From assembly GCA_017469785.1 (NCBI GenBank), contig JAFUFU010000007.1:31059-95058 (forward strand): a stretch of 64,000 nt of DNA, read 5' to 3'. Source of the stretch: Treponema sp. (lineage in GTDB: Bacteria; Spirochaetota; Spirochaetia; Treponematales; Treponemataceae). This document shows, one piece after another, positions 45,790-64,000 of the stretch (the stretch's first letter is position 1; each line of letters begins with the position of its first letter). The position numbers and the translations under genes were made by a program. The notes beneath the pieces are model-generated. The model saw nothing but the letters and a program-made list of their open reading frames with translations, made no database searches and was not told the origin of the DNA.

Positions 45790-45818
45790 TTGACAAATTG
45801 TGCAATCGGTTGCACAAT
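45790..45818 (+). promoter_or_regulatory. promoter and LacI-type operator of galT
   Basis: TTGACA (45790-45795), 17-bp spacer, CACAAT (45813-45818). The perfect operator ATTGTGCAA-TCGG-TTGCACAAT (45797-45818) fills the spacer and covers the -10. The -10 ends 6 bases before the galT ATG, which predicts a leaderless message. Confidence 0.82.
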
Positions 45819-45823
45819 GAGAT

Positions 45824-47347
45824 ATGAGCATTTGTATTCACCATGAACTGAACAGACTTGCCGCCTACGGACTTAAGGCAGGCCTTTTTGAAAAGGAAGA
45901 TTTAGCATTCGTAAAGAACCAATTCCTTCTTCTGCTGAACCTTGATGGATTTGAGAATGACGACGAAGTTGCCGCTGTTCCCGAAGTTGAGATTTCTGAC
46001 CTTGAGGATATCCTGAAAAATATCCTTGATTATGCCGTGTCTCATAATCTTATCGGTGGCGACGGCACTGTTTACCGTGATTTGTTTGACACCCGGCTGA
46101 TGAGCGTGATGGTTGACCGACCGTCTAATATCATCAGGAAATTTAATGAGCTTTACGCCGAATCTCCGAAAAAGGCGACGGATTTCTTCTATAAATTATC
46201 TCAGGATTCTGACTATATCCGCCGTTACCGTGTGTGCAAGGATTTGAAATGGGTTTCAAAAACTCAGTACGGCGATATGGACATTACCATTAATCTTTCC
46301 AAGCCCGAAAAAGACCCCAAGGCAATCGCTGCCGCCAAGCTTATGAAACAGTCTGGCTACCCGAAGTGCCTTTTGTGCAAGGAAAACGAAGGCTATGCTG
46401 GGCGTGTAAATCATCCGGCCCGGGAAAATCACCGCATTATTCCGATTGAACTTGCGGGCGAGAAGTGGGGCTTCCAGTATTCACCTTATGTTTACTACAA
46501 CGAGCACTGTATCGTGTTTAATTATGAGCACACTCCCATGCTTATCTCAAAAAAGACTTTCCAAAGGCTCCTTGATTTTGTTGATAAATTTCCCCATTAT
46601 ACAATCGGAAGCAACGCGGATTTGCCGATTGTCGGTGGCTCAATCCTCACCCATGACCATTTCCAGGGCGGTGCCTATGAATTCCCCATGGCAAAGGCTC
46701 CTGTGGAAAAGGAATTCTCTGTCAAAGGCTATGAGGACGTAAAATGCGGCATCGTAAAATGGCCTATGAGCGTAATCCGCGTCTCCTCTGCAAAAAAAGA
46801 GCGGCTCGTGGAATTCGCTGAGCATGTGCTTGAAAAATGGCGGGCTTATACCGATGAAAACGCCTTTATCTTCGCTGAAACTGACGGCGAGAAGCACAAT
46901 ACCTTGAACCCCATTGCCCGCCGCCGTGGAAGCGACTTCGAGCTGGACTTGGTTTTGCGCAACAATATCACCACGAAGGAGCATCCGCTGGGCTTTTATC
47001 ATCCCCATGCGGAGCTTCACCACATCAAAAAGGAAAATATTGGCCTGATTGAGGTTATGGGTCTTGCAATCCTTCCGGGCCGGCTCAAGACAGAACTTTC
47101 TGAACTGACGGCCGCACTGAAAGAAGGACGCGATATTTCTTCTGACGAAAGTCTGGCAAAACACAGCGACTGGGTAGCCGAGCTGAAGCAGAAATATGAC
47201 TTTGCTTCCCTTTCACCGGATAAAATCGACGGAATTCTCAAGGACGAGATAGGACATGTCTTCTCCAAGGTTCTTGAGCATGCCGGCGTTTACAAATATA
47301 CAGAAGAAGGAAAAACGGCGTTCAAAAAATTCATTGAAACGCTGTAA
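45824..47347 (+). CDS. galT: UDP-glucose--hexose-1-phosphate uridylyltransferase, class II
   Basis: A 507-residue GalT of the Firmicutes-type class II. It exchanges UMP between UDP-glucose and galactose-1-phosphate in the Leloir pathway. Marks are SGYPKCLLCKENEGYAGR, the active-site stretch GGSILTHDHFQGGAYEFPM and YHPHAELHHIKKENIGLIEVMG. The start codon lies 6 bases after the -10 box with no Shine-Dalgarno. galM follows by 17 bp and galK by 9 more, forming a galT-galM-galK operon. Confidence 0.94.
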   Translation: MSICIHHELNRLAAYGLKAGLFEKEDLAFVKNQFLLLLNLDGFENDDEVAAVPEVEISDLEDILKNILDYAVSHNLIGGDGTVYRDLFDTRLMSVMVDRPSNIIRKFNELYAESPKKATDFFYKLSQDSDYIRRYRVCKDLKWVSKTQYGDMDITINLSKPEKDPKAIAAAKLMKQSGYPKCLLCKENEGYAGRVNHPARENHRIIPIELAGEKWGFQYSPYVYYNEHCIVFNYEHTPMLISKKTFQRLLDFVDKFPHYTIGSNADLPIVGGSILTHDHFQGGAYEFPMAKAPVEKEFSVKGYEDVKCGIVKWPMSVIRVSSAKKERLVEFAEHVLEKWRAYTDENAFIFAETDGEKHNTLNPIARRRGSDFELDLVLRNNITTKEHPLGFYHPHAELHHIKKENIGLIEVMGLAILPGRLKTELSELTAALKEGRDISSDESLAKHSDWVAELKQKYDFASLSPDKIDGILKDEIGHVFSKVLEHAGVYKYTEEGKTAFKKFIETL

Positions 47348-47364
47348 AATTTCAGGATACAACG

Positions 47365-48375
47365 ATGACCGAGTCAAAAAAACTGGATGATGGAGTCGTG
47401 CTTTACACTGTTTCACGGGAAAAAATCTCTTTTTCTGCGATGAATCTTGGCTGCACGATAACAAATCTTTTTGTGCCGAACAAAACTGGCGGCAAGACAG
47501 ACATTCTCTTGGGGTATGATACCCTTGACGGCTGGAAAAAAGGAACTGAGGCTCACAATGCGATTGTCGGGCGGGTTGCCAACAGAATCAGGGGTGCTGC
47601 CTTTACCCTTGACGGAGCAGACTATACTCTCGATAAAAATGACGGAGAAAACTGTCTGCATGGAGGAAAAACCCGCTATGAAAAGCTTCTTTGGAATTCA
47701 GAGCCTTTTTCTGACGATACCGGAGAGGGAATCCGTTTTACGCGTGTAAGTGCTGACGGGGAGCAGGGCTTTCCTGGAAGACTTTCCCTGTCCGTGACCT
47801 ATACTATTACGGCGGACAATGCTCTGCTTCTTGAGTATATGGCCCGGACTGACAAGGCGACTCCGATAAACCTCACCAATCATGCCTACTTTAACCTGAA
47901 TGGCAGAGGGAGCGTTCTTTCCCATAAACTTCAGTTGGATTGTGATTCTTATCTGGAGCTTGCCTCGGACGGAGCTCCCAGCGGAAAAATCCTTTCCGTA
48001 GAGGGGACTCCATTTGATTTCAGGAAGGAAAAACCTGTGGGACAGGATATAAAGGAAATCCCTCCCAGCGTCCGGGGGTATGATCATTGTATGGTCACTC
48101 ATGGGAATGAAAAAGGCCTCGTAAGATTCGGGGCTTTGTCTTCTGAGGAAAGCGGCATCAAGATGGAAATGTTCACGAATCAGCGGGGCGTTCACCTGTA
48201 TACAGCCAATTATATCGGTGGCGTCATAGGAAAAGGTGGTGTCAGGCACAATGCTCAGGATGGAATTTGCTTCGAGACGGAGCGCTTTCCGAATGCAATC
48301 AATGAGCCTGAATTTCCGACCTGTGTGCTGAGACCGGAAGAGACATATTGCTCTAAAACACTTTTGAAATTTTAG
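47365..48375 (+). CDS. galM: aldose 1-epimerase (galactose mutarotase)
   Basis: A 336-residue mutarotase that converts beta- to alpha-galactose, the galactokinase substrate. Marks are NAIVGRVANRIRGAAFTLDG, NCLHGGKTRYEK, the catalytic His region NLTNHAYFNLNG and the catalytic Glu region ICFETERFPNAINEPEFP. No signal peptide, so cytoplasmic. Middle gene of the galT-galM-galK operon. Confidence 0.94.
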   Translation: MTESKKLDDGVVLYTVSREKISFSAMNLGCTITNLFVPNKTGGKTDILLGYDTLDGWKKGTEAHNAIVGRVANRIRGAAFTLDGADYTLDKNDGENCLHGGKTRYEKLLWNSEPFSDDTGEGIRFTRVSADGEQGFPGRLSLSVTYTITADNALLLEYMARTDKATPINLTNHAYFNLNGRGSVLSHKLQLDCDSYLELASDGAPSGKILSVEGTPFDFRKEKPVGQDIKEIPPSVRGYDHCMVTHGNEKGLVRFGALSSEESGIKMEMFTNQRGVHLYTANYIGGVIGKGGVRHNAQDGICFETERFPNAINEPEFPTCVLRPEETYCSKTLLKF

Positions 48376-48384
48376 GAGAAAACT

Positions 48385-49578
48385 ATGGGACTGACAGAAA
48401 AAGAATACAATCCGAAGGATTTGCCTTCTGAATTTGTGAAGATGTATGGTGGAAACGAAGCTGATGTGGCGGTCTATGCATCTCCGGCCCGAATCAATAT
48501 TATCGGCGAGCATATCGACTACAACGGCGGAAAAGTCTTCCCGGCCGCCATTGACCGCTATCTGTATGTCGCGATACGAAAACGCGGAGATTCAAAAATC
48601 ATATACAACGATGTGCGCTTCCCCGGAACCTTCGAGTTTGATATCAACGATGACTTTGCCTTCGACAAAAAGAATGATTATGCAAATTATCTGAACGGAA
48701 TCCTGAGCCAGCTGAAAGCGAAAGGATATACCCTTGATTCAGGTTTTGAAATTCTCATGGTGAGCAATGTTCCTGCCGGGGGCGGTATTTCTTCTTCTTC
48801 TGCCTTGGAATGCGGATTTGCCTATGCTGTCAGCGAGACATTTAAGCTGGGGATTGACCGTATTGAAATTGCTAAGCTTGGCCAGATGTCCGAGCATAAT
48901 TTTATGAACGTGAACTGCGGAATCATGGATCAGTTTATAATCGCTACTGGCAAAAAAAATACGGCTGAAATGCTCGACTGCGCCACCCTCGATTATGAGT
49001 ATGCGCCTCTTGAGCTTGGCGACTACCGATTTGTGGTCATGAATACGAATAAAGTCCGCAAGCTGTCTGATTCTAAATACAATGAGCGCCGGAGCCAGTG
49101 CGAGCAGGCCCTGAAAATTCTGAATGAAAAGGGTGTGGCTGTTTCGGCCCTGTGTGAATTGACGCCTGCAAAATGGGAAGAAGTCAGGCATTTTGTAAGC
49201 GATGAAATCCTTCAGAAGCGGGCGAAACATTGTGTCTTTGAGAATCAGCGTGTCCTTGACGCTGTATCAGCACTTAAAGAAGGTAATCTGGAAAAACTCG
49301 GCTCTCTTTTGAATGCTTCACACGCTTCTCTTAAAACTGACTATGAGGTTACGGGCATCGAGCTTGATACCCTTGCCGAGACTGCCCAGAAGCAGGAGGG
49401 CTGCCTTGGAGCCAGAATGACTGGAGCCGGATTCGGCGGATGTGGAATCGCCCTGGTTCACAAGGACTGCGTGGATTCCTTCATCGAGAAGGTTCAGAAA
49501 GAATATACCGACAAAATCGGCTATGCGGCTGGATTCTTTGTCTGTGAGACCGGTGACGGTGTGAGCCGCATTAAATAG
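48385..49578 (+). CDS. galK: galactokinase
   Basis: A 397-residue GHMP kinase that phosphorylates galactose at C1. Marks are the galactokinase signature ASPARINIIGEHIDYNGG, the ATP loop PAGGGISSSSALECGFA, NCGIMDQF and the C-terminal GARMTGAGFGGCGIALV. AGGAG lies 8 bases before ATG 48385. Last gene of the operon, followed by a terminator. Confidence 0.95.
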   Translation: MGLTEKEYNPKDLPSEFVKMYGGNEADVAVYASPARINIIGEHIDYNGGKVFPAAIDRYLYVAIRKRGDSKIIYNDVRFPGTFEFDINDDFAFDKKNDYANYLNGILSQLKAKGYTLDSGFEILMVSNVPAGGGISSSSALECGFAYAVSETFKLGIDRIEIAKLGQMSEHNFMNVNCGIMDQFIIATGKKNTAEMLDCATLDYEYAPLELGDYRFVVMNTNKVRKLSDSKYNERRSQCEQALKILNEKGVAVSALCELTPAKWEEVRHFVSDEILQKRAKHCVFENQRVLDAVSALKEGNLEKLGSLLNASHASLKTDYEVTGIELDTLAETAQKQEGCLGARMTGAGFGGCGIALVHKDCVDSFIEKVQKEYTDKIGYAAGFFVCETGDGVSRIK

Positions 49579-49608
49579 CTTGAATGCCGAACTAGCATTG
49601 AGAATCTG

Positions 49609-49645
49609 AAGGCCCCTTGTGTTCAAAGCAGGGGGGCTTTTTTTT
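49609..49645 (+). terminator. terminator of the galTMK operon
   Basis: AAGGCCCC (49609-49616) pairs with GGGGCTTT (49633-49640) with one G-T pair, followed by a T run. Confidence 0.85.
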
Positions 49646-49677
49646 ATCAAAAAAATAAAAAAAATGTGAAATTATTG

Positions 49678-49733
49678 TTGACAATTTGAGCAATCGGTTG
49701 CACAATGATTATATGAGCAATCGGTTGCACAAT
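49678..49733 (+). promoter_or_regulatory. promoter and two tandem operators of the lacI-type gene
   Basis: TTGACA (49678-49683), 17-bp spacer, CACAAT (49701-49706), the same plan as galT. Operator 1 is 49685-49706 and operator 2 is 49712-49733; both contain GCAATCGGTTGCACAAT and their centres are 27 bp apart. They form a 27-bp tandem repeat. Operator 2 begins one base before ATG 49713 and is translated if that start is used. Confidence 0.82.
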
Positions 49734-50714
49734 TCTAATTTTACCATGGATGACATCGCATTGGAGCTGGGGCTTTCAAAAAGCACGGTTTCCAGAGCCT
49801 TGTCAGATTCAGGCAGAATTAGCATGGAGACAAAAAACAGGGTACGCGAATGCGCTAAAAGGCACGGGTTCAAGCCGAATCTTGTGGCCAAGGCTCTTGC
49901 AGGCAAAAAAACACTGAATATCGCGGCTGTCATGCCCTTTCAGGCCAGCGCAACGCAGATGATGTTCTTCCATGAGTGTCTTTCTGGAATCGTAAGCCGT
50001 GCTGCCCTTAGCGGTTACAGCGTGCTTGTGTGTATGACGGAAAGTTCAGAGAATGAAATATTGCAGAATGTTCTTTCCGACGGTAAGGTTGACGCTGTTG
50101 TCCTTACCCAGCTCAAGCATAACGATGAAAACGTCGCCCTGCTCAGGCGGCACGGTCTTCCCTTTGTTGTCATTGGTTCCGGAGCCGGCGATGATATTGT
50201 TCATGTCGACTCACGTATGAAAGAAAACTGCGCGCAGTTCACGGAGCTTGTGACTGAAAAACTTCCGGCTGCTTCACGGGTGCTTTTCGTATGCGGTTCC
50301 CTTGATATTGAGGCGAACAACAACCGTCTCTCCGGTTTCTTGTCCGGAATGGAGAGCGTGAAGGGCAAGGACGTGCAGTATGCGGTCTGTACGGAGCCCA
50401 GCGATGTGGCTGATGAGATTTCCCTAAAAAGCTGGAATCTCGTGCTTTGCTCTGACGACGTGGTCTGTATGCAGGTGGTTGAGATTCTGAATGAGAATCA
50501 TCTTGAAATCGGCAGGGATGTAAAAATCGCTTCGTTTCATGACAGTGTTCTTCTTGAATCTCACGTTCCGTCAATCAGCGCGGTGAAAGTTGACGCTTAT
50601 GCGCTTGGTGAAAAATCTTCCGAGCTTTCGCTTAATCTGGTGAAAGGCGAGAAGTGTGAATCTGTAAATTATGTAGACTGCTCTTTTGCCATGAGGGCAT
50701 CTACTGGTGAATAA
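49713..50714 (+). CDS. LacI family transcriptional regulator of the galactan locus
   Basis: A 333-residue regulator with an N-terminal helix-turn-helix (MDDIALELGLSKSTVSRALSDSGRIS) and hinge (KPNLVAKALAG), then a periplasmic-binding-type sugar domain ending SCEV-like SAVKVDAYALGEKSSELS. ATG 49713 lies 7 bases after the -10 box and would start a leaderless message, adding SNRLHNSNFT ahead of the domain; ATG 49746 gives the usual LacI start. Operators at its own and two nearby promoters suggest it controls the locus and itself. The inducer is probably galactose or a galacto-oligosaccharide. Confidence 0.88.
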   Translation: MSNRLHNSNFTMDDIALELGLSKSTVSRALSDSGRISMETKNRVRECAKRHGFKPNLVAKALAGKKTLNIAAVMPFQASATQMMFFHECLSGIVSRAALSGYSVLVCMTESSENEILQNVLSDGKVDAVVLTQLKHNDENVALLRRHGLPFVVIGSGAGDDIVHVDSRMKENCAQFTELVTEKLPAASRVLFVCGSLDIEANNNRLSGFLSGMESVKGKDVQYAVCTEPSDVADEISLKSWNLVLCSDDVVCMQVVEILNENHLEIGRDVKIASFHDSVLLESHVPSISAVKVDAYALGEKSSELSLNLVKGEKCESVNYVDCSFAMRASTGE

Positions 50715-50727
50715 AAAAGGAGTTCGT

Positions 50728-51930
50728 ATGAAAAGATGTGCTAAAATTGGAATGATTGTTTTGGGAGCCGCTGCTTTGCTGGCTTTTGCCTCATGCAAGG
50801 AAAAGCAGGCTGCAAACGGAAACGTCACTTTGACTGTGTGGGAATCAACAAACGGCCCTGATGAATTCATCAAACAGGCGGGGAAGGCTTTCGAGGCAAC
50901 CCACCCGAACGTAAAAATCAAGTTTGAGAATGTGGAGCTGGGAGACACGACGGGCCAGATGGCTCTTGACGGTCCTGCTGGAAAGGGCGCGGATGTATTT
51001 GTTGCCCCCCATGACAGGCTGGGGTCCCTTGTTTCTGGCGGACATGTGCTTCCGACGGCAAATCCTGACAAGGTTCGTTCTCGCATCCTTGCTTCATGTG
51101 CCAAGGCTCTGACTTATGATGGGACTCTTTATGGATATCCGGTTTCTGCCGAGACTTATGCCCTCTTCTACAACAAAAAACTGATTAACGAGAACGAGGT
51201 CCCCAAATCATGGGATGAGCTTGTCGAGTGGTCTGCAGAATTCAACAAGAAAAATCCTGGAAAATACGGTTTCGTTATGGACGCCGGAAACGCTTACTAC
51301 ACGATTATTTTCACCACAAAGGACGGAAACCGTCTCTTCGGAACTGACGGAAACGACCGCAACAATTCAAATATCAACTCCGCGAAATCAATTGAAGGCA
51401 TGAGATTCTTCCAGGGGCTCAAAAAAGTCCTTAATGTCTCTGCTTCTGACCTTGATACGGCTACCGTCGATGCGGCTTTCCAGTCAGGAAATGCGGCCAT
51501 GCACATCACTGGCCTGTGGAATGTAGTTCCTTTTGAAAAGGCCGGAATCGAGTTCGGCGTCGCGCCTCTTCCTTCTCTCCCGGGAGACACGACTCCGTCC
51601 GCCTCATTCAGCGGAACGCGCGCCATGTTCGTTTCTGCCTATTCTGACCACCCTGCTGAAGCAAACGAATTCGCTGAATTCCTTATCAGTGACGAGATGC
51701 AGCGTCTCCGATTCGACATTACTGGTGCTATTCCCAGCATTGACATTCCTCTGGACAGCCCTTATGCGAAAGGATTCTTGACTCAGCTTGAATATGCCTT
51801 CCCGATGCCGACAATCCCTGAGATGGCTATGTTCTGGGAAGCCATGAACAATGCCAGCAAGAATATCTGGGACGGAGCTGATCCTCAGACCGAACTTGAT
51901 GCTTGTAACGCGGCAATGGTTTCAAAATAA
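50728..51930 (+). CDS. sugar ABC transporter substrate-binding lipoprotein
   Basis: A 400-residue maltose-type (family 1) binding protein. The signal peptide ends in the lipobox AFASC with Cys23. Fold marks are VTLTVWESTNGPDEFIKQAGKAFEATHPNVKIKFENVEL, PVSAETYALFYNKKLI and AAMHITGLWNVVPFEKAGIEFGVAPLP. AAAGGAG lies 5 bases before ATG 50728. It lies 13 bp after the regulator gene and before two permease genes. Galacto-oligosaccharide binding is inferred from context. Confidence 0.9.
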   Translation: MKRCAKIGMIVLGAAALLAFASCKEKQAANGNVTLTVWESTNGPDEFIKQAGKAFEATHPNVKIKFENVELGDTTGQMALDGPAGKGADVFVAPHDRLGSLVSGGHVLPTANPDKVRSRILASCAKALTYDGTLYGYPVSAETYALFYNKKLINENEVPKSWDELVEWSAEFNKKNPGKYGFVMDAGNAYYTIIFTTKDGNRLFGTDGNDRNNSNINSAKSIEGMRFFQGLKKVLNVSASDLDTATVDAAFQSGNAAMHITGLWNVVPFEKAGIEFGVAPLPSLPGDTTPSASFSGTRAMFVSAYSDHPAEANEFAEFLISDEMQRLRFDITGAIPSIDIPLDSPYAKGFLTQLEYAFPMPTIPEMAMFWEAMNNASKNIWDGADPQTELDACNAAMVSK

Positions 51931-51976
51931 GGCTTGATTCATAAGACGTAATCTGTGGGACGTATTTCATAAGGGA

Positions 51977-52003
51977 ATCTCTAAAAATTGCAATTTTTGA
52001 GAT
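51977..52003 (+). other. hairpin between binding-protein and permease genes
   Basis: ATCTC (51977-51981) with GAGAT (51999-52003), and AAAAATTGCAATTTTT inside, with one bulge. It lies 23 bases before the permease start and may protect or partly terminate the upstream message. Confidence 0.5.
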
Positions 52004-52025
52004 ACCCATAATTTTGAGGTTGAAT

Positions 52026-53342
52026 ATGATTTTGAAAGATGATGCTTCAGATATGAAGAGAGTGACAAAAACCGCTTCATTGTTTATGGGACTTGCCCAT
52101 CTCCTCTATCTGAAAGATTACGTCAAGGGAGTGTTCTTTGCGCTGTGTGAGCTTGTCTTTCTTGCCTGCATTCCTTTGACTGTGAAAAAAATCATCGGGC
52201 TTATCACGCTTGGCTCTCCCCATCCTGAGCTTCCGATTAAAATGCGTGACAACTCGATTTTCATGCTGATTGACGGCATTTTGATTATCGCTGTCATCGC
52301 GATTTTTGTGATTGTCTATGTCCTGAGCGTAAAAAGCGCTCAGAACGGCTACGCTGAGTATTGCAGGACAGGCCGCTTCAAGAATCAGAAGGAACTCTTT
52401 GACAACGCAATGGGAAAATCTTTCCCGATTTTTGGTCTTGCGCCGGGCTTTGTCATGGTTCTGGTTTTCGTCGTCGTGCCTCTTATTTTCAGCATCGCTG
52501 TCGCCTTCACGAACTATTCGGATCCCTCCCATATCCCGCCGAACAATACGGTGGACTGGGTTGGATTCCAGAACTTTGTCGAGCTTCTCGGCGGTCAGAA
52601 AACCTGGTCTGTGGGATTCCTTCGTGTCGCCGTGTGGACGCTGATCTGGGCCGTGCTTTCGACCTTTACCTGCTATTTCGGCGGCCTGATTGTTGCGGTT
52701 CAGCTCAAGGAAATCAATTTCCGGATCGCTCCGGTTTTCCGCTTCATCTTCATCCTGCCTTACGCTGTTCCGGGTGTCGTTTCAATGCTTGTATGGAAAA
52801 ACCTGCTTAACGGCTCTTTCGGTATCGTAAACAGGACGCTGATGGCTCTCGGCTTGATTTCTAACCCGATTCCGTGGCTTGGAACGCCTTTCATGGCTCA
52901 GTTTACTTGTGTCATGGTGAATCTTTGGGCCGGATTCGGATACTTCATGCTCCTTTCAATGGGAACCATGACCGCAATCAGCGAGGATATGAATGAGGCC
53001 GCAAAAATTGACGGCGCGAACAGGCGGCAGATTTTCGCAAAAATCACGCTGCCTCTGGTTCTCTACCAGACGATGCCTCTTATCATCATGAGTTTCGCCC
53101 ACAACGTGAACAACTTCGGCGCGATTTACTTCCTTACTGGTGGCGCGCCGGCTGTATCAGATTCTACGACAACCCTGGCCGGAGGTACTGATATCCTTGT
53201 GTCATGGATTTACAAGCTGACGGTTACGCTCATGAAGTACAATTATGCATCGGTCATCGCGGTTATGATTTTCATCGTGCTTGCTCCGTTCGCTATATTC
53301 AACTTCAGAAATACAAAGGCTTATAAGGAAGGTTCAGTATGA
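52026..53342 (+). CDS. sugar ABC transporter permease (MalF type)
   Basis: A 438-residue permease with a long N-terminal region and about eight membrane segments. The cytoplasmic EAA loop that contacts the ATPase is MNEAAKIDGANRRQIFAKITLPL. The SPF- and TM layout matches MalF-like oligosaccharide permeases. ATG 52026 has GAGG 6-9 bases upstream. It overlaps the next gene by 4 bp. No ATPase gene is in the window, so a shared MsmK-type ATPase is likely. Confidence 0.9.
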   Translation: MILKDDASDMKRVTKTASLFMGLAHLLYLKDYVKGVFFALCELVFLACIPLTVKKIIGLITLGSPHPELPIKMRDNSIFMLIDGILIIAVIAIFVIVYVLSVKSAQNGYAEYCRTGRFKNQKELFDNAMGKSFPIFGLAPGFVMVLVFVVVPLIFSIAVAFTNYSDPSHIPPNNTVDWVGFQNFVELLGGQKTWSVGFLRVAVWTLIWAVLSTFTCYFGGLIVAVQLKEINFRIAPVFRFIFILPYAVPGVVSMLVWKNLLNGSFGIVNRTLMALGLISNPIPWLGTPFMAQFTCVMVNLWAGFGYFMLLSMGTMTAISEDMNEAAKIDGANRRQIFAKITLPLVLYQTMPLIIMSFAHNVNNFGAIYFLTGGAPAVSDSTTTLAGGTDILVSWIYKLTVTLMKYNYASVIAVMIFIVLAPFAIFNFRNTKAYKEGSV

Positions 53343-54181
53343 TAAAAGAACATGAAATGCATCAGTTCAACAAGACGATTATCTATCTGATTTTCTTGAT
53401 TGTATCGGTTTTCGTTATTTATCCACTGGTCTATGTTGTCAGCGGAGCCTTTGCGCCGGGAAACTCAATTGCCTCGCTGGACATCGTTCCGTTCAAGAAC
53501 GGAATCACCTTTGAGCACTTTGTGGAGTTGTTTACGAAAAATGATTACGGACGCTGGTTTTTGAACACGCTGCTCATCGCCGTAGAGACGAGTGCGGCGA
53601 CAGTGGTGATTTCATCCCTTTCGGCATACGTGTTCAGCCGCTTCACGTTCCGTTTCAAGAAATCTTTCCTGATGAGCCTGCTCATCCTTCAGATTTTCCC
53701 GAGCTTCGTCGGCATGATTGCTATCTACGTAATCCTGCTCAGAATCGGGGGCCTGGATACCCTCTGGGGACTGGTTTTGGTCTATACGGCGGGAAATATC
53801 CCCTACAACACGTGGATGGTCAAGAACTATATGGATACTGTCTCAAAGAGCCTTGACGAGGCTGCCAGAATCGACGGCGCGAGCCACTTCCGCGTGTTTG
53901 CCCAGATAATCATGCCTGTGGCAAAACCGATTATCACCTTCCTGGCTATCACAAGCTTCACGGCTCCATGGATGGATTTCATCTTCCCAAAGATGGTTCT
54001 CCGAAGCCCTGAGAATCAGACTCTGGCTCTCGGTCTCTTCGCCTTTGTGTCGGATAAAAAGAACGAATTCACGGTCTTTGCCGCTGGCTCACTGCTGGTA
54101 TCAATTCCTTTCGTGATTTTCTTCCTGGTCACTCAGAGAACGCTGATTTCAAGCTTTGGCGGCGCGGCGGTTAAGGAATAA
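53339..54181 (+). CDS. sugar ABC transporter permease (MalG type)
   Basis: A 280-residue permease with six membrane segments and the EAA loop LDEAARIDGASHFRVFAQIIMPVAKP. Partner of the preceding MalF-type protein; the 4-bp ATGA overlap suggests coupled translation. Ends just before a GC-rich repeat and the GH35 promoter. Confidence 0.92.
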   Translation: MIKEHEMHQFNKTIIYLIFLIVSVFVIYPLVYVVSGAFAPGNSIASLDIVPFKNGITFEHFVELFTKNDYGRWFLNTLLIAVETSAATVVISSLSAYVFSRFTFRFKKSFLMSLLILQIFPSFVGMIAIYVILLRIGGLDTLWGLVLVYTAGNIPYNTWMVKNYMDTVSKSLDEAARIDGASHFRVFAQIIMPVAKPIITFLAITSFTAPWMDFIFPKMVLRSPENQTLALGLFAFVSDKKNEFTVFAAGSLLVSIPFVIFFLVTQRTLISSFGGAAVKE

Positions 54182-54350: not shown

Positions 54351-54408
54351 TTGACAAATTGTGCAATCGGTTGCATAATATAATACAGGTGTGCGCAACC
54401 GATTGCAC
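54351..54408 (+). promoter_or_regulatory. promoter and two operators of the GH35-GH53 unit
   Basis: TTGACA (54351-54356), 17-bp spacer, CATAAT (54374-54379). Operator 1 ATTGTGCAA-TCGG-TTGCATAAT is 54358-54379. A second site in the opposite orientation, GTGCGCAACCGATTGCAC, is 54391-54408, centres 32 bp apart. The leader is nearly 50 bases and carries a Shine-Dalgarno before ATG 54427. Confidence 0.82.
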
Positions 54409-56643: not shown

Positions 56644-58617
56644 ATGTTGAGGAGAAAGCAATTGAAACAAATCGTTGCGGCAACAACTGTTCTGTTGAGC
56701 TTTCTGCCGGTTTATTCTGCAGGAAAGGCGAGTGACGCTGTAAAACAGAAGATTCTGGTCGAAAAAGTTGACGGTCTTCGTGAGGATTTCATGAAAGGCC
56801 TCGACATCAGTATGATTGACCAAATCGAGAAAACCGGCGGAAAATTCTACAATGCCCGCGGCGAAGAAGAGGATATTTTTCAGATTATAAAAGACAACGG
56901 CGTGAACTATGTCCGAATCCGATTATGGAACAATCCGACTTATGAGGAAGACCAGTATGATAAAAACGGTAAACTCACGGCGAAGAAAGGCGACAAGATG
57001 GGCGGCGGTGACAACACCGTTGAGACGGATATCCGCATCGCCAAACGAATCAAGGCCGCCGGTCTGAAATTCATGCTGGACTTTCACTATTCTGACTTCT
57101 GGGCTGACCCGGGAAAGCAGTATATGCCGCAGGACTGGAAAAACTTAACGGCAAAGCAGCTTGAGGATACCGTTGAGAAATTCACCCGGGAAACCATTGA
57201 CCGCTTTACGGCTGAGGGCGCGACTCCTGACAGCGTTCAGATTGGAAACGAGCTTAACTCCGGCTTCATGTGGCCGATCGGACAGACATGGAGCGAGGAC
57301 AAGAATGCAAAAATCGGCGGCATGAAAGAATTTATGCGGCTTCTTGACCGTGCTTCAAAGGGTGTCCGCGGGGCAAAAGGCGGAAAAGACATCAAAATCA
57401 TCGTTCACCTTGCTGATGGCGGAAAACAGGACCTTTATAAATATGTCTTCGACAACGTAAAAAAGGCAAAAATTGACTATGACATCATCGGCCTTTCATT
57501 CTATCCCTACTGGCACGGTTCAATGGAAGAGCTGAAGGCAAATCTTGAGATGCTTTCAAAACGCTACGGCAAGGAAATGGCCGTAGTTGAGACCGCTTAC
57601 GCATTCACTGAAGAGAACGGCGATTTCCAGGGAAATGTCTTCCAGGTTTACAGCGATGACGCCCACGGCTATGTTCCAAGCGTTCAGGGACAGGCGACTG
57701 AAATCCGAGACGTGATTGCGACCGTAGCCGGCGTGAAGGGCGGTGTCGGCGTCTTCTACTGGGAAGCTGACTCGATTCTCTGGAAGGGCGCAAATCTTTC
57801 TGCGACAGAGGGAAACACTTGGGAAAATCAGGCCTTGTTCAGCTTCGACGGAAAAGTCCTTCCCTCAATGGCGGTCTGGAACCTCGTCAGCGGAAAGGGT
57901 GAAGTAGAAAATGTCTGGGGCGGCTCTGCAAAGAACGGCTCTTCATTCGCTCCTTATGCCCTTGCGGAAGCTGTTGAAATCACTGTGAAACCGGGAGAAA
58001 TTCCGCCGCTTCCTGCAAAAGTCAAGGTCATCTATTCAAACGACAGCGAAGGCATTGTTGACGTAAAATGGGAAACCATCGACTGGAAAAAACAGAAAGC
58101 CGGCAAGGTCAATGTGGAGGGAAGTATTTCTGGGCAGACCTTCAAGGCAAAGGCTGAGGTGACGCTCTCGGACCGCACGAACATCATCGAGGACCCGTCA
58201 TTTGAAAGCGGAAAAATGGGAAAATGGAAGCTCAACGGTCCCGGAGCCGCCTGTTTCATGGAGAACAACAAAGGTAACGCCCGGACAGGAAAATGGACTT
58301 ACAAATACTGGCTTGCAAGCGGTTTCCGCTCTGTTCTCTCACAGACCTTCACCGACATCGAAAACGGCACTTACGAGCTTTCGGTCTGGGCTATGGGTGG
58401 CGGCGGAGAAAACAATATCCGTCTCTTTGCTGCCGGCTACGACGGCACGGTCAAGCAGATTACTTCAAAAATCAACAACACCGGCTGGAACGACTGGCAT
58501 CAGTATAAAATCCGCATTCCGGTCAGCACGAACAACGTGACGGTCGGAATCTACCTGGACACTGCACCCGATTGCTGGGGCAATTTTGACGATATCGAAC
58601 TTGTCAAAGTCGATTAA
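56644..58617 (+). CDS. secreted GH53 endo-beta-1,4-galactanase with Ig-like and carbohydrate-binding modules
   Basis: A 657-residue protein with a signal peptide (cleavage near YSAGKA). The GH53 domain runs from FMKGLDISMIDQIEKTGGKFYN to about residue 420. Acid/base Glu203 in VQIGNELNSG; nucleophile Glu316 in VVETAYAF. An Ig-like domain (VKVIYSNDSEGIVDVKWETI) and a C-terminal module (NIIEDPSFESGKMGKW...DCWGNFDDIELV) resembling the galactan-binding CBM61 follow. GGAGG before ATG 56644 decides the start; ATG 56608 abuts the GH35 stop. Confidence 0.9.
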   Translation: MLRRKQLKQIVAATTVLLSFLPVYSAGKASDAVKQKILVEKVDGLREDFMKGLDISMIDQIEKTGGKFYNARGEEEDIFQIIKDNGVNYVRIRLWNNPTYEEDQYDKNGKLTAKKGDKMGGGDNTVETDIRIAKRIKAAGLKFMLDFHYSDFWADPGKQYMPQDWKNLTAKQLEDTVEKFTRETIDRFTAEGATPDSVQIGNELNSGFMWPIGQTWSEDKNAKIGGMKEFMRLLDRASKGVRGAKGGKDIKIIVHLADGGKQDLYKYVFDNVKKAKIDYDIIGLSFYPYWHGSMEELKANLEMLSKRYGKEMAVVETAYAFTEENGDFQGNVFQVYSDDAHGYVPSVQGQATEIRDVIATVAGVKGGVGVFYWEADSILWKGANLSATEGNTWENQALFSFDGKVLPSMAVWNLVSGKGEVENVWGGSAKNGSSFAPYALAEAVEITVKPGEIPPLPAKVKVIYSNDSEGIVDVKWETIDWKKQKAGKVNVEGSISGQTFKAKAEVTLSDRTNIIEDPSFESGKMGKWKLNGPGAACFMENNKGNARTGKWTYKYWLASGFRSVLSQTFTDIENGTYELSVWAMGGGGENNIRLFAAGYDGTVKQITSKINNTGWNDWHQYKIRIPVSTNNVTVGIYLDTAPDCWGNFDDIELVKVD

Positions 58618-58660
58618 GCGTGTCATTTCGTGAATGTTGGAATCAAAAAGAGGATTTTTT

Positions 58661-60517
58661 ATGAAAGTAAAAAAGAATATGATAAAACGAACGGCATCCC
58701 TCCTTGCGGCAGTCTGCCTTTCTTCGACGGTATTCGCGCAGGAAGCCAATGACGGATTCATCGTTCCCTTGAACGAGGATTTCTCAAAGCCAGCCCAGCA
58801 GACAGCGGGAATCGGTGACAGCCTGCCTGCCTCAAACAAGGAGGCAGCGCCAGCAGGCAAATTCTCCAACCTCAGCATGGGCTTGTGGGTTCAGACACAG
58901 AACGTGAACGAGTCTCTTATCCGCAATGTCTCTGACAGCAAAAAGAAAGGCTATGAATTCGACAATTCCCACTTCAAGACAGAGGCAAACTGGTGGTTCT
59001 GGGGAAACGTGAGCGAGAATGTCTTCCTTTCTTCTGAAATCTCAGTCCTGAATTTCGATAAAACTCTTTATCAGGAAAATACCTATGCGGCAAACGTGCC
59101 TGACGTGACATGGGCTGATGGCGCCCAGTCAGTTGCCGAAATGTTCTCCTCACCCTACAAAAAAGGAAACGATGAGGGCCTTGGGTATTTCAAGAAAATG
59201 GCCGTAAACCTGACGACTCCCTATGTGATCACAAAATTCGGTTACGGAGACGTGGGCGAGGACAGCGGAATGTCTCATTTCGACGGAATCTTCAATGTCA
59301 TTGACTATAAGGACTGGAACGGATACACAGAAATCAAGAACGGACCAGAGATCCAGCAGTTCGGTGACTTCAAGGTAGACGCTGCTGCCGGATTCAGTGA
59401 TAAAGTCGATAATTACGGAACCTACGATTACATCGACGTGAAATACGCTGACAAGGCGGAGATTGCTTTCACGTTCGGAAGTTCTTCTACAGAAGAGCAG
59501 CTTTTCTTCTATAATAAAACGAATACAAACGCTTTCTCGGCTTATGCCGCCTTCAATCCTCTTGAGAACCTCAAGCTTGAGGCCCACTTGCTCGGTACAT
59601 TCGGAACAGGCGATGACATGGAGCTTGGAAAGGACACTCTCGCCTATGCCGGCCGCGTCTCTTGGAAAGCCGACACATGGAAGGCAAGCATCATGCAGAG
59701 CCTTGCAGGTCTCAAAGTTGATTCTGTCTGGGGCTCTGATGGTGAAGTCTATGATGACATCAACGCCAACACTGCCACGACACAGTTTGACGCTGAAAAA
59801 TCATTCGCTGACCTTAAAACACCGCTCACGCTTGCCCTCGATCAGGGATTCACGTACACCCTCAATGATGACAGCGATACGGGCGCATACGATGGAATGC
59901 TTTCGTTCAGGACGGAGCCTTACGCCGACATTGACGTGAGCGAGCTTCTTGGAAAGAATCTCACTGTAGGAGTGTACGGAGTGATGTCATTCGACAAGCT
60001 CTCAAAGAACCAGAGCGAGGACAAGAATCTGGTCACATCTTTCAACGAGGGTGGTATCGAACTTGTCACAGAAAACGCGATTCCTTTCGTAAAAAAGACC
60101 TCGTTTGACTATGCAATCAAACGGGAATTCGGCGACTGGGAAAGCGGCTCAAGCTATCCCCTCAACATCACATACCACTCAATCATGCTCAACTCAGATA
60201 TTACGGACCGCCTCAGCGTGACATTCGGCTCAGTCGTGCGTGACGACAAGACAGACGACAAAGACCTGACTGTTCCGTTCGCATTTGCAATGGGAGCAAG
60301 CATTAAGGACCTTCCTCTTCCGGGAAAACCGATGCTCTGGGCTCACTTCACATACAGTATGTTCCCCTACACGGACACGAACTACAACCTGCGAAGATAC
60401 GACGAGGAGAACTCAAAATACGCGCACCGAACATATCTGCTTAATGAGCTTGACGGCAGCGAGGACAACTGCAAGTACAAGAGCCGTGTCAGCCTTGGTC
60501 TTGTTTGGGATTTGTAA
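58661..60517 (+). CDS. outer-membrane beta-barrel protein of the galactan locus
   Basis: A 618-residue exported protein with a signal peptide ending STVFAQ. The rest is rich in alternating aromatic and polar strands (NWWFWGNVSENVFLSSEIS, KLEAHLLGTFG, AFTFGSSS) and ends with an aromatic strand SRVSLGLVWDL, typical of an outer-membrane barrel C-terminus. I do not recognise a family. Position between GH53 and lipoprotein genes suggests a porin for galacto-oligosaccharides. GAGG lies upstream of ATG 58661. Confidence 0.75.
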   Translation: MKVKKNMIKRTASLLAAVCLSSTVFAQEANDGFIVPLNEDFSKPAQQTAGIGDSLPASNKEAAPAGKFSNLSMGLWVQTQNVNESLIRNVSDSKKKGYEFDNSHFKTEANWWFWGNVSENVFLSSEISVLNFDKTLYQENTYAANVPDVTWADGAQSVAEMFSSPYKKGNDEGLGYFKKMAVNLTTPYVITKFGYGDVGEDSGMSHFDGIFNVIDYKDWNGYTEIKNGPEIQQFGDFKVDAAAGFSDKVDNYGTYDYIDVKYADKAEIAFTFGSSSTEEQLFFYNKTNTNAFSAYAAFNPLENLKLEAHLLGTFGTGDDMELGKDTLAYAGRVSWKADTWKASIMQSLAGLKVDSVWGSDGEVYDDINANTATTQFDAEKSFADLKTPLTLALDQGFTYTLNDDSDTGAYDGMLSFRTEPYADIDVSELLGKNLTVGVYGVMSFDKLSKNQSEDKNLVTSFNEGGIELVTENAIPFVKKTSFDYAIKREFGDWESGSSYPLNITYHSIMLNSDITDRLSVTFGSVVRDDKTDDKDLTVPFAFAMGASIKDLPLPGKPMLWAHFTYSMFPYTDTNYNLRRYDEENSKYAHRTYLLNELDGSEDNCKYKSRVSLGLVWDL

Positions 60518-60528
60518 GGAGGTGTAAA

Positions 60529-61005
60529 ATGAAATTGGAAAACGAAAAATCTAAAATGAAAGCAGCACGGAACTTTCTTCTTGCTCTGGTACTGCCTTTT
60601 TGCCTTGCCATGACACTGACATCATGCGCCGATGAGGACGGACTGCATGACCAGAATGCCCTTCAAGTGACATTCGAATTCACCGGTTTTGGCGATGACA
60701 TTTCAGGCTCATATTCAATTCCAGGAAACTTCGATTCTTGGGACAACACCACCGCTGATGTCAGTCTTTCAAAAGGAGCCGGAACATCGGAAGTCATTGC
60801 GATTTCTGACAGCAATATCCAGTTCTCTCTCTGTCCGGTTGATGAATGGACTCGCCCATGGTATATCGAAGGCGCTGTTGAGGGAAACGGAAGCGATGGC
60901 GGAAAAATGTGGAACTTCTATATCGACGGCCTTGATTTGGATGCCGGTGAAGTCACGATTCTTGTAGATGCAAGCTCTGGAACTGCCGTTCCTGTCGTGA
61001 AATAG
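60529..61005 (+). CDS. lipoprotein, putative surface glycan-binding
   Basis: A 158-residue lipoprotein: signal segment with lipobox LTSC (Cys33), then a single small beta domain (VTFEFTGFGDDISGSYSIPGNFDSW...WYIEGAVEGNGSDGGKMWNFYIDG). GGAGGTG precedes ATG 60529; ATG 60556 is a later option. Unknown family; starch-binding-like sandwich folds look similar (SYSIPGNFDSW). Located between the barrel protein and another lipoprotein, so glycan binding is inferred from context. Confidence 0.75.
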   Translation: MKLENEKSKMKAARNFLLALVLPFCLAMTLTSCADEDGLHDQNALQVTFEFTGFGDDISGSYSIPGNFDSWDNTTADVSLSKGAGTSEVIAISDSNIQFSLCPVDEWTRPWYIEGAVEGNGSDGGKMWNFYIDGLDLDAGEVTILVDASSGTAVPVVK

Positions 61006-61018
61006 GGAGAAAAAGAAA

Positions 61019-62503
61019 ATGAGAAAAGTGAAAACAGATAACGTAAAAATGAGAAACAGACTTCTTGCCGCATTCGGAACCCTCTCGCTCCTTTTCGCCT
61101 TTGCCTCTTGTGACCAGCTTCAGGACGAACTTTCCAGCGAGCAGCTCAAAGACCAGAAATCTGGAATCGGAACTGTAAGCGCAAGCTCCACAACCTACTA
61201 TTACGATGGTAGCGAAAATGACAGCGTGAAAGGCAAAGAGGCTCATCTTGTGCTTGACCTTTCCCAGATTGCGGACGCCACAGATGCCGCCGTAAAATAC
61301 ACCCTTGAATACTCAATCGGCTCTGACTCGGACAAAGTGGAATATTCTTCTGCAGGAAGCCTTGCCGGAACCTTGAGCGATTCAAAGACTAAGTATTACA
61401 TTAACCTCGCCCCCGCGATAAACCTGATTGACGGCACCGGGGAGCCTGCATACGGCGACATCGCCTACACATTCATCCTTTCAGGACTCACGAATGCAAG
61501 CGGAAACGACTACAACGGCCGTTCCTTCCCCTCATTCTCAAAAACAGTGAAATTTGCCCCTCTCTATACGACAGATTCGCTGGAATTCTCTTCAAAATCA
61601 CTGCCAGTCGGCTCTGAAATCAAGATTCCCCTGAACGGAGAAATCAGCGAGGTCGCTGAGACTGTAACTGCTGCTGTAACGAGCGGTTCAGTTACGGCGA
61701 ATTTCACGGCAAAAGTGTCGTCTGACGGAAAAGCAATCGTCCTGACATCAAAAAACGACCTTTCAGGCGAGGAATTCACGCTAGATTTCACCATCACAGG
61801 AATCAAACCCGTCGGAGCAAAGGAAGAGTATAGCCACACCTTCAGCGGAGTGAAGTTCATTCCGACTAATGTGACACTGGACGGAGTTCTTGACGAGGAT
61901 TTATGGTCTGCAAGTTATGTTGCCACAAGCGCTGACAGTTATTCAGCCGCAAATACCTACCAGAATATTAAAAAGGTCTCTGTAGTTGATGATGGCTTGA
62001 ATCTTTATGTTGCGGTGGAATTTGCGGAAACTCCTGGTGGTAATAAAACAAACATACAACTTTCTTTTGACACCGGTGCTGATAACGGAAGTACAAGCGA
62101 TGATGGTGCTTGGATGACACCTGCAACAACGACGACATTCTCGAACGGAACTTTGGATTTCAAGGCTTATGAGAATATCGCTTGGGTTGCAGATAATGCC
62201 ACAAATCAACGTGAGTTGAGCAACTTGTCGGCTTCAGGAGTCTGTGGTCCGGAGTGGAATTCTGTGGCAAACTGTTATACAAATGATTCAAAAATCATAG
62301 AGTATTCAATCAAACTCACAGAGCTTGGTGTTTCTTCTTCTGATAAAGTGAAATTGTTTGTTTCAATTTCACAATATGAGTATACGTCAGAAAATACTGA
62401 AACTCTTCTTGATTGTGTTCCAGCTTCTGCTGCAAGTGTAACTGACTCAGGTCAGTCGGTGGCGGTTGATTTCTCAAAAGCTCTGGAATACACGATTCAG
62501 TAA
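61019..62503 (+). CDS. lipoprotein with CBM9-like C-terminal module
   Basis: A 494-residue lipoprotein with lipobox FASC (Cys31). Residues about 50-290 form Ig-like beta domains. From about residue 290, VTLDGVLDEDLWSASYVAT...NLYVAVEF and an internal IEYSIKLTEL resemble the CBM9/DOMON-like carbohydrate-binding fold (DGxxDExxW start). GGGAG lies upstream of ATG 61019. Likely displayed on the cell surface to bind galactan or its fragments. Confidence 0.75.
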   Translation: MRKVKTDNVKMRNRLLAAFGTLSLLFAFASCDQLQDELSSEQLKDQKSGIGTVSASSTTYYYDGSENDSVKGKEAHLVLDLSQIADATDAAVKYTLEYSIGSDSDKVEYSSAGSLAGTLSDSKTKYYINLAPAINLIDGTGEPAYGDIAYTFILSGLTNASGNDYNGRSFPSFSKTVKFAPLYTTDSLEFSSKSLPVGSEIKIPLNGEISEVAETVTAAVTSGSVTANFTAKVSSDGKAIVLTSKNDLSGEEFTLDFTITGIKPVGAKEEYSHTFSGVKFIPTNVTLDGVLDEDLWSASYVATSADSYSAANTYQNIKKVSVVDDGLNLYVAVEFAETPGGNKTNIQLSFDTGADNGSTSDDGAWMTPATTTTFSNGTLDFKAYENIAWVADNATNQRELSNLSASGVCGPEWNSVANCYTNDSKIIEYSIKLTELGVSSSDKVKLFVSISQYEYTSENTETLLDCVPASAASVTDSGQSVAVDFSKALEYTIQ

Positions 62504-62512
62504 ATAATTCCC

Positions 62513-62543
62513 ATGCGTTCGCCTGTAGTTGCGGACGCATTTT
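62513..62543 (+). terminator. hairpin between lipoprotein and second GH53 gene
   Basis: ATGCGTTCGC (62513-62522) pairs with GCGGACGCAT (62531-62540) with one T-G pair, then TTT. A partial terminator or attenuator within the cluster. Confidence 0.55.
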
Positions 62544-62569
62544 ACGACTATCCTGATAGGGAGGTTTTT

Positions 62570-64000
62570 ATGAAAAAAATTGCTTCTTACGTCTGGAAAG
62601 GCCTTTTTCTGACACTGATTCCGGCATTTCTGGCCCTTTCCGGTTGTACGAACGATATAGACAGCGCGAGTACCGTTCTCGGCATTGACAGCAGCGCCGA
62701 TGATGCCTCGGCTCTGAACGACAACGACGGAAAAAGCGACAAGGACACGCGCAAGGATTACGGTTCCAATGATGGCTCGGGCTCGTCAGTCATTGATTTC
62801 GGAGACAACTTCATCCGAGGATTCGACGCGAGCGCGGTGGATTACTTTGAGAATGTCTACGCTTCATCGAATAATTGGACAGACAAAAACTGGTACGACA
62901 CGGACGGAACGCAGAAGGATATTTTTGTCCTGCTTGCAGAGCATGGCTTTAACACAATCCGTTTGCGTGTGTGGGTTGATCCAAGTGTTACAAGTACGAT
63001 TTCAAACGATTCTGTGTGGCCGACTTCTACGAATGTGGAAAACGCATGGAAAAATGGTGACAGCACTAAAGAGCGAGCCGCAGCGCTCGCAAAACGCGCA
63101 AAAGCGGCTGGCATGAAAGTTCTTCTTGACTTCCACCTTTCGGACTATTGGACAGACCCGTCCGTTCAGCTCATTCCAGAATCTTGGCAGTCTGTTACAA
63201 GTGCGGAGGAAATGAAAGAAAAACTCACTTCTCATATAACTGAAGTGCTCCAATATATGAAAGATAACTCTGTGACCCCGGACTATGTACAGGTAGGCAA
63301 CGAGATTGACAGAGGAATCCTTGTTGATGCGTCCGTAGACGCTGGCACAAGTCCGAAGACGGCGACTTCGGCGGATTCTTCAATCAGTGGTGGAATTAGT
63401 TCAGATAACTTCAAAACATATCTCAAAGCTGGATGTGATGCCGTACGTGATTTTGATAACGATATAAAAATCATAATTCATATTACGGCAAAGAATTCTG
63501 ATGGATTTGCGAAAGTTGAAGCATCTGGCGCAGACTACGATATTATTGGCCTTTCGTATTATTCGTGGGAAAATCACGGAACAATGGATGAACTTATCGC
63601 AAAAATCGGAAACTTGGAGAGCACATATAATAAAAAAGTCCTGGTTGTGGAAACTTCGTTTGCTGCAAAAGATTACGAAAATAATGAGCACATGACCCAG
63701 GCAGCAACGAATTTAAGCGCAAAGAATTATTCCGATGTCACGATAGAGAGCAATGCTGTTGTTCCTTCGGAAGATGTTCAGAAAGCAATTCTTCGCCACA
63801 CCATGCAGGAAGTCTATGATGCAGGTGGAATAGGAATCTGTATTTGGGGTGGCGAGCGGCGCGATTATCAGTACGGACTTTTCGACTGGGAGGGAAAAGC
63901 CTTTGCTGGAATCGACGCATTCAACTACAAACCCGCCGACGGTTACCCGACCGAGAATTCATCAGACGGCAACTCTTCTGACAATACGGGGGGGGGGTAC
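62570..64000 (+). CDS. lipoprotein GH53 endo-beta-1,4-galactanase, 3' end outside window
   Basis: Open from ATG 62570 (GGGAGG upstream) to the window end, 477 codons, no stop yet. Lipobox ALSGC (Cys26), then a Ser/Asp-rich linker and a GH53 domain from FIRGFDASAVDYFENVYASS. Acid/base Glu245 in VQVGNEIDRG; nucleophile Glu361 in VVETSFAAK. After PADGYPTENSSDGNSSDN the frame reaches a ten-G tract coding Gly-Gly-Gly, probably a linker to further modules. A surface-anchored counterpart of the secreted GH53 gene. Confidence 0.88.
   Translation, partial: MKKIASYVWKGLFLTLIPAFLALSGCTNDIDSASTVLGIDSSADDASALNDNDGKSDKDTRKDYGSNDGSGSSVIDFGDNFIRGFDASAVDYFENVYASSNNWTDKNWYDTDGTQKDIFVLLAEHGFNTIRLRVWVDPSVTSTISNDSVWPTSTNVENAWKNGDSTKERAAALAKRAKAAGMKVLLDFHLSDYWTDPSVQLIPESWQSVTSAEEMKEKLTSHITEVLQYMKDNSVTPDYVQVGNEIDRGILVDASVDAGTSPKTATSADSSISGGISSDNFKTYLKAGCDAVRDFDNDIKIIIHITAKNSDGFAKVEASGADYDIIGLSYYSWENHGTMDELIAKIGNLESTYNKKVLVVETSFAAKDYENNEHMTQAATNLSAKNYSDVTIESNAVVPSEDVQKAILRHTMQEVYDAGGIGICIWGGERRDYQYGLFDWEGKAFAGIDAFNYKPADGYPTENSSDGNSSDNTGGGY
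63988..63997 (+). repeat. ten-G homopolymer in the GH53 lipoprotein gene
   Basis: Ten consecutive G in coding sequence, three bases from the window end. Such tracts are prone to slippage; sequencing error or contig-end artefact is also possible. Confidence 0.6.

Follow-up and report, generated by a model that had tools for sequence, protein, structure and literature searches.

A 64,000-nucleotide stretch of a Treponema sp. genome (assembly GCA_017469785.1, contig JAFUFU010000007.1, positions 31,059 to 95,058 of the forward strand; hereafter the window) ends in a run of genes for galactose metabolism, sugar import and galactan degradation that share a repeated operator. The best reading of this locus is a regulon resembling that of GanR in Bacillus subtilis, in which a LacI-type repressor would control the use of beta-1,4-galactan and feed a plug-less outer-membrane pore coupled to an enzyme or binding module. 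We give the regulon a probability of about 85%. The regulation is well supported by the sequences, the function and topology of the pore are inferred, and for the pore step taken alone the odds are nearer to even. The related records include Treponema zioleckii kT3 and ruminant metagenome-assembled genomes, and we thus take the host for a Treponema (sensu lato) of the rumen or gut. All positions are window coordinates (Table 1) unless a contig (C), locus (L) or genome (G) label is given.

Operators and genes in the host genome

The core GCAATCGGTTGC occurs exactly five times in the window, spread over the promoters of galT, lacI and GH35 (Table 1). A reading made from the window's letters alone (the sequence-only reading) had noticed one core in these three promoters, overlapping the -35/-10 region. 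The copies are indeed exact, with five sites rather than three, and the first one in each promoter lies between TTGACA and CACAAT or CATAAT, which are separated by a 17-bp spacer. The palindrome is TTGTGCAATCGGTTGCACAA, and its right arm reaches into the -10 box. We then scanned the genome (3,236,427 bases in 63 contigs), a check that had been proposed with the sequence-only reading. The degenerate core GCAAYCGRTTGC is found exactly at six places, the five of the window and C23:70183, when about 0.7 are expected from base composition. A 20-bp form of the operator, with at most three mismatches allowed, was found at five places, all within these six, and its reversed control at none. The sixth site starts 53 bases upstream of the ATG of GH53c, which encodes a 580-residue RicinB-GH53 lipoprotein on another contig (C23) and is, with GH53a and GH53b, one of the three GH53 genes of the genome. 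The genome thus gave an independent test, since the operator led to a third galactanase. There, and in the orthologue of G020, the operator sits after the likely -10 box, unlike in the promoters of the window. Among the 16 one-mismatch sites of the genome, 12 were examined as possible further members; 11 lie more than 200 bases inside long open reading frames (ORFs) and were treated as background, and the other (L010:2458) is at the very start of an ORF.

Pfam recovered the enzyme, regulator and transporter genes that had been named from the letters: GalT, the epimerase, GalK, LacI, GH35, GH53a, GH53b, and the solute-binding protein (SBP) and permeases of an ATP-binding cassette (ABC) importer. 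Both domains of the regulator, the helix-turn-helix PF00356 and PF13377, score over the Pfam cut-off. The GH53 proteins match PF07745 with E-values of 2.6e-110 (positions 1-339 of 340) and 3.7e-64 (positions 3-308), GH53b being incomplete because contig C6 ends with the window. GH53a aligns with solved GH53 enzymes (PDB 9fli); it has a CBM_4_9 match below the Pfam cut-off, and its C-terminal part matches PDB 2xom, titled arabinogalactan endo-galactosidase, which we take to be the galactan-binding CBM61 of Thermotoga maritima. The galactan-specific parts of the sequence-only reading are thereby upheld, as is its assignment of one LacI-type gene to an operator common to galTMK, lacI with the transporter, and the GH35-GH53 genes. 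Its preference for ABC import over a SusCD system also agrees with the genome, where the transporter is encoded in the locus and the two TonB plug matches lie on other contigs (C10 and C50). The system cannot be called self-contained, as had been claimed: GH53c with the sixth operator, the likely ATPase of the importer (C46:27114, the sole UgpC/MsmX-type ATPase over cut-off) and galE (C16:9375, again the sole one over cut-off) are all elsewhere in the genome. In addition, relatives have an operator-bearing lipoprotein gene after GH53b that would here fall past the contig end.

The operator and its genes across the genus

Of 146 genomes of the genus, 12 contain a strict 18-bp form of the site, TGNGCAAYCGRTTGCNCA, with 36 occurrences in all; its reversed control is found in none of the 146. 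When mapped, all 36 sites are at genes of the same set: galT/galM, lacI or a homologue, GH35, GH53c, or a lipoprotein gene. Such a lipoprotein gene comes next after GH53b in three genomes and is isolated in G038. In G121, the strict site is at a LacI homologue of 31% identity, beside a transporter that is 67-72% similar. Orthologues of the regulator (at least 55% identity) are present in 14 of the 146 genomes, namely in 10 of the 12 with the strict operator and in 4 of the 134 without it. The locus of T. zioleckii kT3 is L061/L077, and the part of it that was read shows no operator at galT.

Sites with the bare core were treated apart. Six of them (L065, L066, L067, L069, L072 and L073) were not counted, lacking the TG..CA flanks; two are within ORFs and four upstream of other genes. 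The bare core may serve other LacI-type regulators too.

Some operator-bearing lipoprotein genes change fast (L038 5323-6843, L041 8339-9526, L043 7099-9435, L046 6391-7842, L081 4656-6287). Most of them stand where the galactan cluster ends. Their operators are doubled in L038, L043, L046 and L081, and the four that were scanned gave no Pfam match. G084 has two operator-bearing galT genes (L055 and L064), one 99% and the other 86% identical to that of the window; its assembly is possibly mixed.

Promoter layout and the operator inside lacI

The spacer is 17 bp long in 35 of 36 distinct promoters, which were chosen for a TTGAC 4-9 bases upstream of the core; this count leaves out GH35 in L045, L051 and L052, GH53c, and some relaxed sites. 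We then recorded, across 750 kb from the window and related loci, where an ATG opening at least 100 codons follows the -10 box. Among 35 operator promoters it is 5-7 nt away in 28 (exactly 6 nt in 24 of these), and among 142 promoters that lack the operator in 4. The genomes behind these counts are related, and the promoters are not independent samples. One of these four is the regulator of G121, which has the core only in its coding start. The lacI gene of L049 has an ATG at distance 0 and also at 6, and the lipoprotein gene of L043 has one at 6, although its real start may be later. Since the bases between -10 box and ATG vary and their number hardly does, we predict that transcription of galT and lacI starts at the ATG itself and yields leaderless messages.

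With this start, the second operator of lacI covers codons 2-6 of its own gene. The same is true in 12 of 17 lacI homologues, a set that includes the divergent ones of G121 (31% identity) and G010 (39%). Among the 12, G041 and G028 have one mismatch, and G143 shows the same changed core as in its operator 1. The site is degenerate in G010 and absent in UBA4326, G093, G095 and G068. In these four the SNRL-type peptide is also gone, and 10-11 residues remain before the conserved TMDD. The joint loss of operator and peptide, with the leading residues kept, suggests that selection on these codons acts on the DNA site rather than on the peptide.

A presumed outer-membrane barrel with a GH53 partner

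The gene after GH53a encodes a presumed outer-membrane beta-barrel, with a conserved DGFxVPLxEDF-like motif past the signal peptide. The barrel, lipo1 and lipo2 of the window had no Pfam match at 0.001, and members of their families only scattered weak ones up to E=1. The order GH53a-barrel-lipo1-lipo2-GH53b is kept even in genomes without the LacI orthologue (e.g. G001 and L080), and GH53 is present in all 25 of the 146 genomes that have the barrel, against 35 of the 121 that lack it. In G010, G080, G129 and G043, the GH53-Big4-CBM part and the barrel form one open frame; those of G129 and G043 look nearly identical, and the barrel end of G043 is cut by the contig. The fusions have a single signal peptide. 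That of the barrel is gone, and its motif survives, altered, as a linker (DGFKVDL, DSFAIDL, DTFYVDL), so that the fusion is not a mere lost stop codon.

A structural model of the barrel has about 24 strands. A Foldseek search with it returned 18 matches at E≤0.001 to outer-membrane and other envelope proteins, with template-modelling scores to the model of about 0.23-0.29; the sugar porin ScrY (1a0t and 1oh2) is in the list of fold matches. Profile searches of the PDB gave no match for the galactan barrels and, for the wider family described below, matched the CBM48 part alone.

The sequence-only reading had the system working from the cell surface. This fits GH53b, GH53c, lipo1 and lipo2, which have lipoboxes by eye, and not GH53a, whose signal peptide looks ordinary and which some relatives have as a fusion with the barrel. 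Across relatives, a simple lipobox pattern was found in GH53b (10 of 10), lipo1 (24 of 24), lipo2 (18 of 21), GH53c (2 of 2) and SBP (13 of 19), in none of 22 barrels and in 1 of 16 GH35. It flagged 4 of 27 GH53a rows, of which two are not in the GH53a position and two have the cysteine inside the signal core. Lipo1 is probably a CBM20/48-like beta-sandwich.

A wider barrel family at starch loci

A profile of the galactan barrels found homologues in 23 of 392 genomes of the phylum, to which all searches for this family were confined. Five of the first seven divergent loci (L102, L103, L104, L106 and L109) adjoin GH13, GH57 or pullulanase genes by Pfam. All seven divergent starch-locus barrels that were scanned have an N-terminal AMPK1_CBM over the Pfam cut-off, and those of L107 carry CBM48 by a custom profile. 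With a wider profile, the full-length matches among those listed are all in the class of the window, taken as Spirochaetia, and the listed matches from other classes are stretches of CBM48. The tally of this search (148 of 392 genomes, with at most three candidates scored per genome) is thus not a count of barrels, because it includes short CBM48-only matches. The host genome itself has a CBM48-barrel paralogue of the starch type (C52:68461; L110 7459-9624), beside GH13-like genes.

A gene resembling starch enzymes is present in 19 of 23 CBM48-barrel loci (14 of 18 once the loci that supplied the reference enzymes are set aside) and in none of 59 other loci, a control set drawn largely from the operator and galactan loci of the same genus rather than at random. 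A lipoprotein of fewer than 300 residues adjoins the barrel in 15 of the 23. In six (L111, L112, L113, L116, L118 and L119), genes like the SBP of the window are near the barrel, with one or two permeases, L119 being cut off after the SBP. The CBM48-barrel gene of L118 (G107) is broken by two in-frame stops.

In a tree of 48 barrels, drawn with a midpoint root for display only, the 22 without CBM48 all come from GH53 loci and are on one side of a branch (support 100/100). Their neighbour is the CBM48 barrel of the GH13 locus L102. Fused and unfused barrels are interleaved (L099 is next to L087), which indicates that the fusion arose or split more than once. As judged from its genes, this is a barrel family without a Pfam name whose members carry, or adjoin genes for, a glycan-binding or glycan-cutting part. 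We propose tentatively, holding it somewhat less probable than its contrary, that spirochaetes have a distinct, TonB-independent outer-membrane device for glycan uptake. It would consist of a large beta-barrel, a CBM48 (starch) or GH53-CBM61 (galactan) module fused or adjacent at its N-terminus, and a CBM-like lipoprotein, feeding ABC importers. The galactan branch would have lost the ancestral CBM48 once, and some species would have fused the endo-enzyme to the pore. If so, cleavage at the entrance of the pore could act as a ratchet that draws the polymer in.

Proposed mechanism and its alternatives

From the sites, genes, synteny, fusions and grouping of the barrels, we infer the following scheme. 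When galacto-oligosaccharides are lacking, the regulator would sit on the TTGYGCAAYCGRTTGCRCAA-like sites, between the -35 and -10 boxes at galT, lacI and GH35 and just past the -10 box at GH53c, often with a second site downstream. It would shut galTMK, its own transporter operon, the GH35-GH53a-barrel-lipo1-lipo2-GH53b run, and the unlinked GH53c. The regulator and galT would be made from leaderless mRNAs, with the second operator of the regulator overlapping its own first codons. In the presence of substrate, the surface lipoproteins GH53b, GH53c, lipo1 and lipo2 would bind and cut galactan, the plug-less barrel would let the pieces in, and GH53a, adjacent to the barrel or fused in some relatives, would trim them at the pore. 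The ABC transporter would take up short oligomers, GH35 would free galactose, and GalM, GalK and GalT would process it.

The side on which GH53a works depends on the barrel. Even-stranded porins usually have both termini in the periplasm. If this holds here, the fused GH53a or CBM48 would be at the periplasmic end of the pore, trimming or holding the chain as it enters; were the barrel an exporter, GH53a would be outside. We prefer a pore with the module at its inner mouth, because several CBM48 members adjoin sugar-importer genes. The barrel could instead carry GH53a to the surface, like an autotransporter or a two-partner system, the fusions then being passenger-barrel proteins. The passenger does come first in the fusions, with a single signal peptide, and the unfused pairs have two, as in two-partner secretion. 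However, the barrel part, of about 500-650 residues, exceeds a classic autotransporter beta-domain, eight of eight barrels lack any POTRA, TpsB or autotransporter Pfam match up to E=1, and at starch loci only a CBM48 of about 80 residues precedes the barrel. We consider export unlikely.

The regulon might also answer to free galactose or another galactoside, such as the beta-galactosides of milk or mucin, with galactan as one of several substrates. The inclusion of galTMK speaks for this, and GH35 enzymes are not specific for galactan. It is a less likely possibility, set against three GH53 genes behind operators, one of them unlinked, and against the match of a GH53a module to 2xom. That another LacI-family protein encoded in the genome binds the sites is very improbable: the sites do resemble generic LacI-family operators, and a few core-only sites of relatives precede other genes, but the 20-bp site is restricted to the set in the host genome, the strict site tracks the orthologue of this regulator, and in G143 both sites next to lacI share the same changed core. 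Finally, lacI could start at the next in-frame ATG (49746), which would suffice for the DNA-binding domain, would place the second operator merely in a 5' leader and would make the leaderless reading wrong. By eye, no Shine-Dalgarno sequence tells the two starts apart. Yet none of the 17 homologues interrupts the frame from the first ATG (49713), not even those that carry an additional codon (G100, G041 and others), and galT has the same spacing of 5-7 nt; the earlier start is preferred and the later one is quite improbable.

Several observations weigh against the regulon and pore as described. Four genomes have a LacI orthologue and no strict site, with other flanks around the core at the set genes in G028, G068 and G095 and a changed core in G143. 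Six core-only sites of G084, G095 and G143 are away from the set genes, and those of L066, L069, L072 and L073 are upstream of genes outside the set, the last preceding an operon resembling ABC sugar transporters. Some sites, at GH35 in L045, L051 and L052 and at galT in L076 and L070, depart from the usual promoter arrangement. Signal peptides and lipoboxes were called by inspection or with a simple pattern, and the barrel model has a poor predicted local distance difference test score (57), so that it fixes neither the number of strands nor the side on which the N-terminus lies. That galactan is the inducer and the substrate is itself deduced from the gene families.

Comparison with known systems

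The ganSPQAB operon of B. subtilis combines, like this locus, enzymes for galactan, a binding protein and a pair of permeases; GH35 here replaces its beta-galactosidase GanA, of family GH42. Both systems have a LacI-like repressor and paired inverted-repeat sites, and GanR is induced by beta-1,4-galactobiose (PMC5472308). The GanR site described there, AGTAAA-N4-TTTACT, is upstream of the -35 box, whereas GCAAYCGRTTGC lies here in the spacer; the operator thus differs from that of GanR, as judged from the TTGYGCAAYCGRTTGCRCAA-like repeated site and not from a genome scan for the B. subtilis motif. As in a GanR-type regulon, GH53 genes are behind a LacI-type operator, both in the GH35-GH53 run and in the unlinked GH53c. 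The locus differs by having galTMK in the regulon, by the added presumed barrel and lipoproteins, and by its predicted leaderless promoters.

The SusCD loci of Bacteroidota also cluster surface lipoproteins, an outer-membrane beta-barrel and glycoside hydrolases under one control. In contrast to them, the barrel lacks a TonB plug match (eight members, up to E=1) and import is by an ABC transporter; no SusD family was matched by lipo1 or lipo2 at 0.001 or among the weak matches of family members up to E=1. The outer-membrane part resembles SusCD in its presumed role and fails its defining features. LamB and ScrY porins share the presumed substrate-linked barrel beside an ABC importer, but the barrel part here has no PDB profile match, and members of its family have an N-terminal CBM48 or GH53. 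Operators within coding regions are found in the autoregulation of purR and in the internal operator of gal in Escherichia coli, and lambda cI is a repressor with a leaderless mRNA. Here both features coincide in lacI, since its second operator is written in codons 2-6 and its message is predicted to lack a leader; galT shares the predicted leaderless layout.

The uptake of plant polysaccharides over the outer membrane of spirochaetes is poorly described in the literature that we found, and our searches, which did not extend to subscription papers, returned no title on a spirochaete galactan regulon or on a CBM48- or GH53-barrel protein. Galactan is a side chain of plant pectin, and the proposed regulon is testable and has defined operators. 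The barrels make a candidate pore family that Pfam does not name and whose barrel part has no solved relative; the glycan-binding or glycan-cutting parts that go with its members suggest how these bacteria may take in large sugars. The natural fusions tie enzyme and barrel together. The lacI gene offers a simple case for study, in which the predicted leaderless message of a repressor would contain one of its own operators.

Gene content of the locus

Table 1. Promoters, operators and genes of the galactan locus, with fusion frames of relatives
Feature	Position	Strand	Description
galT promoter	45790..45823	+	TTGACA 45790-45795; core 45802-45813; -10 CACAAT 45813-45818; 5 nt, then ATG; predicted leaderless
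lacI promoter	49678..49728	+	TTGACA 49678-49683; operator 1 49690-49701; -10 CACAAT 49701-49706; 6 nt; ATG 49713
lacI operator 2	49717-49728	+	within codons 2-6 of the regulator
GH35 promoter	54351..54406	+	TTGACA 54351-54356; operator 54363-54374; -10 CATAAT 54374-54379
GH35 second operator	54395-54406	inverted (-)	in the predicted 5' leader, 32 bp from the first operator
galT	45824..47347	+	galactose-1-phosphate uridylyltransferase, 507 residues; PF01087/PF02744
galM	47365..48375	+	aldose 1-epimerase; PF01263
galK	48385..49578	+	galactokinase; PF10509/PF00288/PF08544
lacI	49713..50714	+	LacI-family regulator, 333 residues; PF00356/PF13377; predicted repressor of the regulon; orthologues known
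SBP	50728..51930	+	ABC solute-binding lipoprotein; PF01547/PF13416
ABC permease 1	52026..53342	+	PF00528
ABC permease 2	53339..54181	+	PF00528
GH35	54427..56607	+	beta-galactosidase; PF01301; no signal peptide by eye, hence taken as cytoplasmic
GH53a	56644..58617	+	endo-beta-1,4-galactanase; Big_4 and CBM_4_9/CBM61-like modules; ordinary-looking signal peptide, no lipobox
Barrel	58661..60517	+	presumed outer-membrane beta-barrel, 618 residues; galactan branch of a family without Pfam name
lipo1	60529..61005	+	small lipoprotein, probably a CBM20/48-like beta-sandwich
lipo2	61019..62503	+	lipoprotein with variable C-terminal part; window copy without Pfam match
GH53b	62570..64000	+	lipoprotein galactanase; PF07745; truncated by contig end
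GH53-barrel fusion frames	L085 3935-7612; L086 3903-7556; L087 431-4114; L088 1-3535		L088 cut by contig end

When lipo2 is compared with its relatives, the N-terminal half is kept and the C-terminal parts differ.

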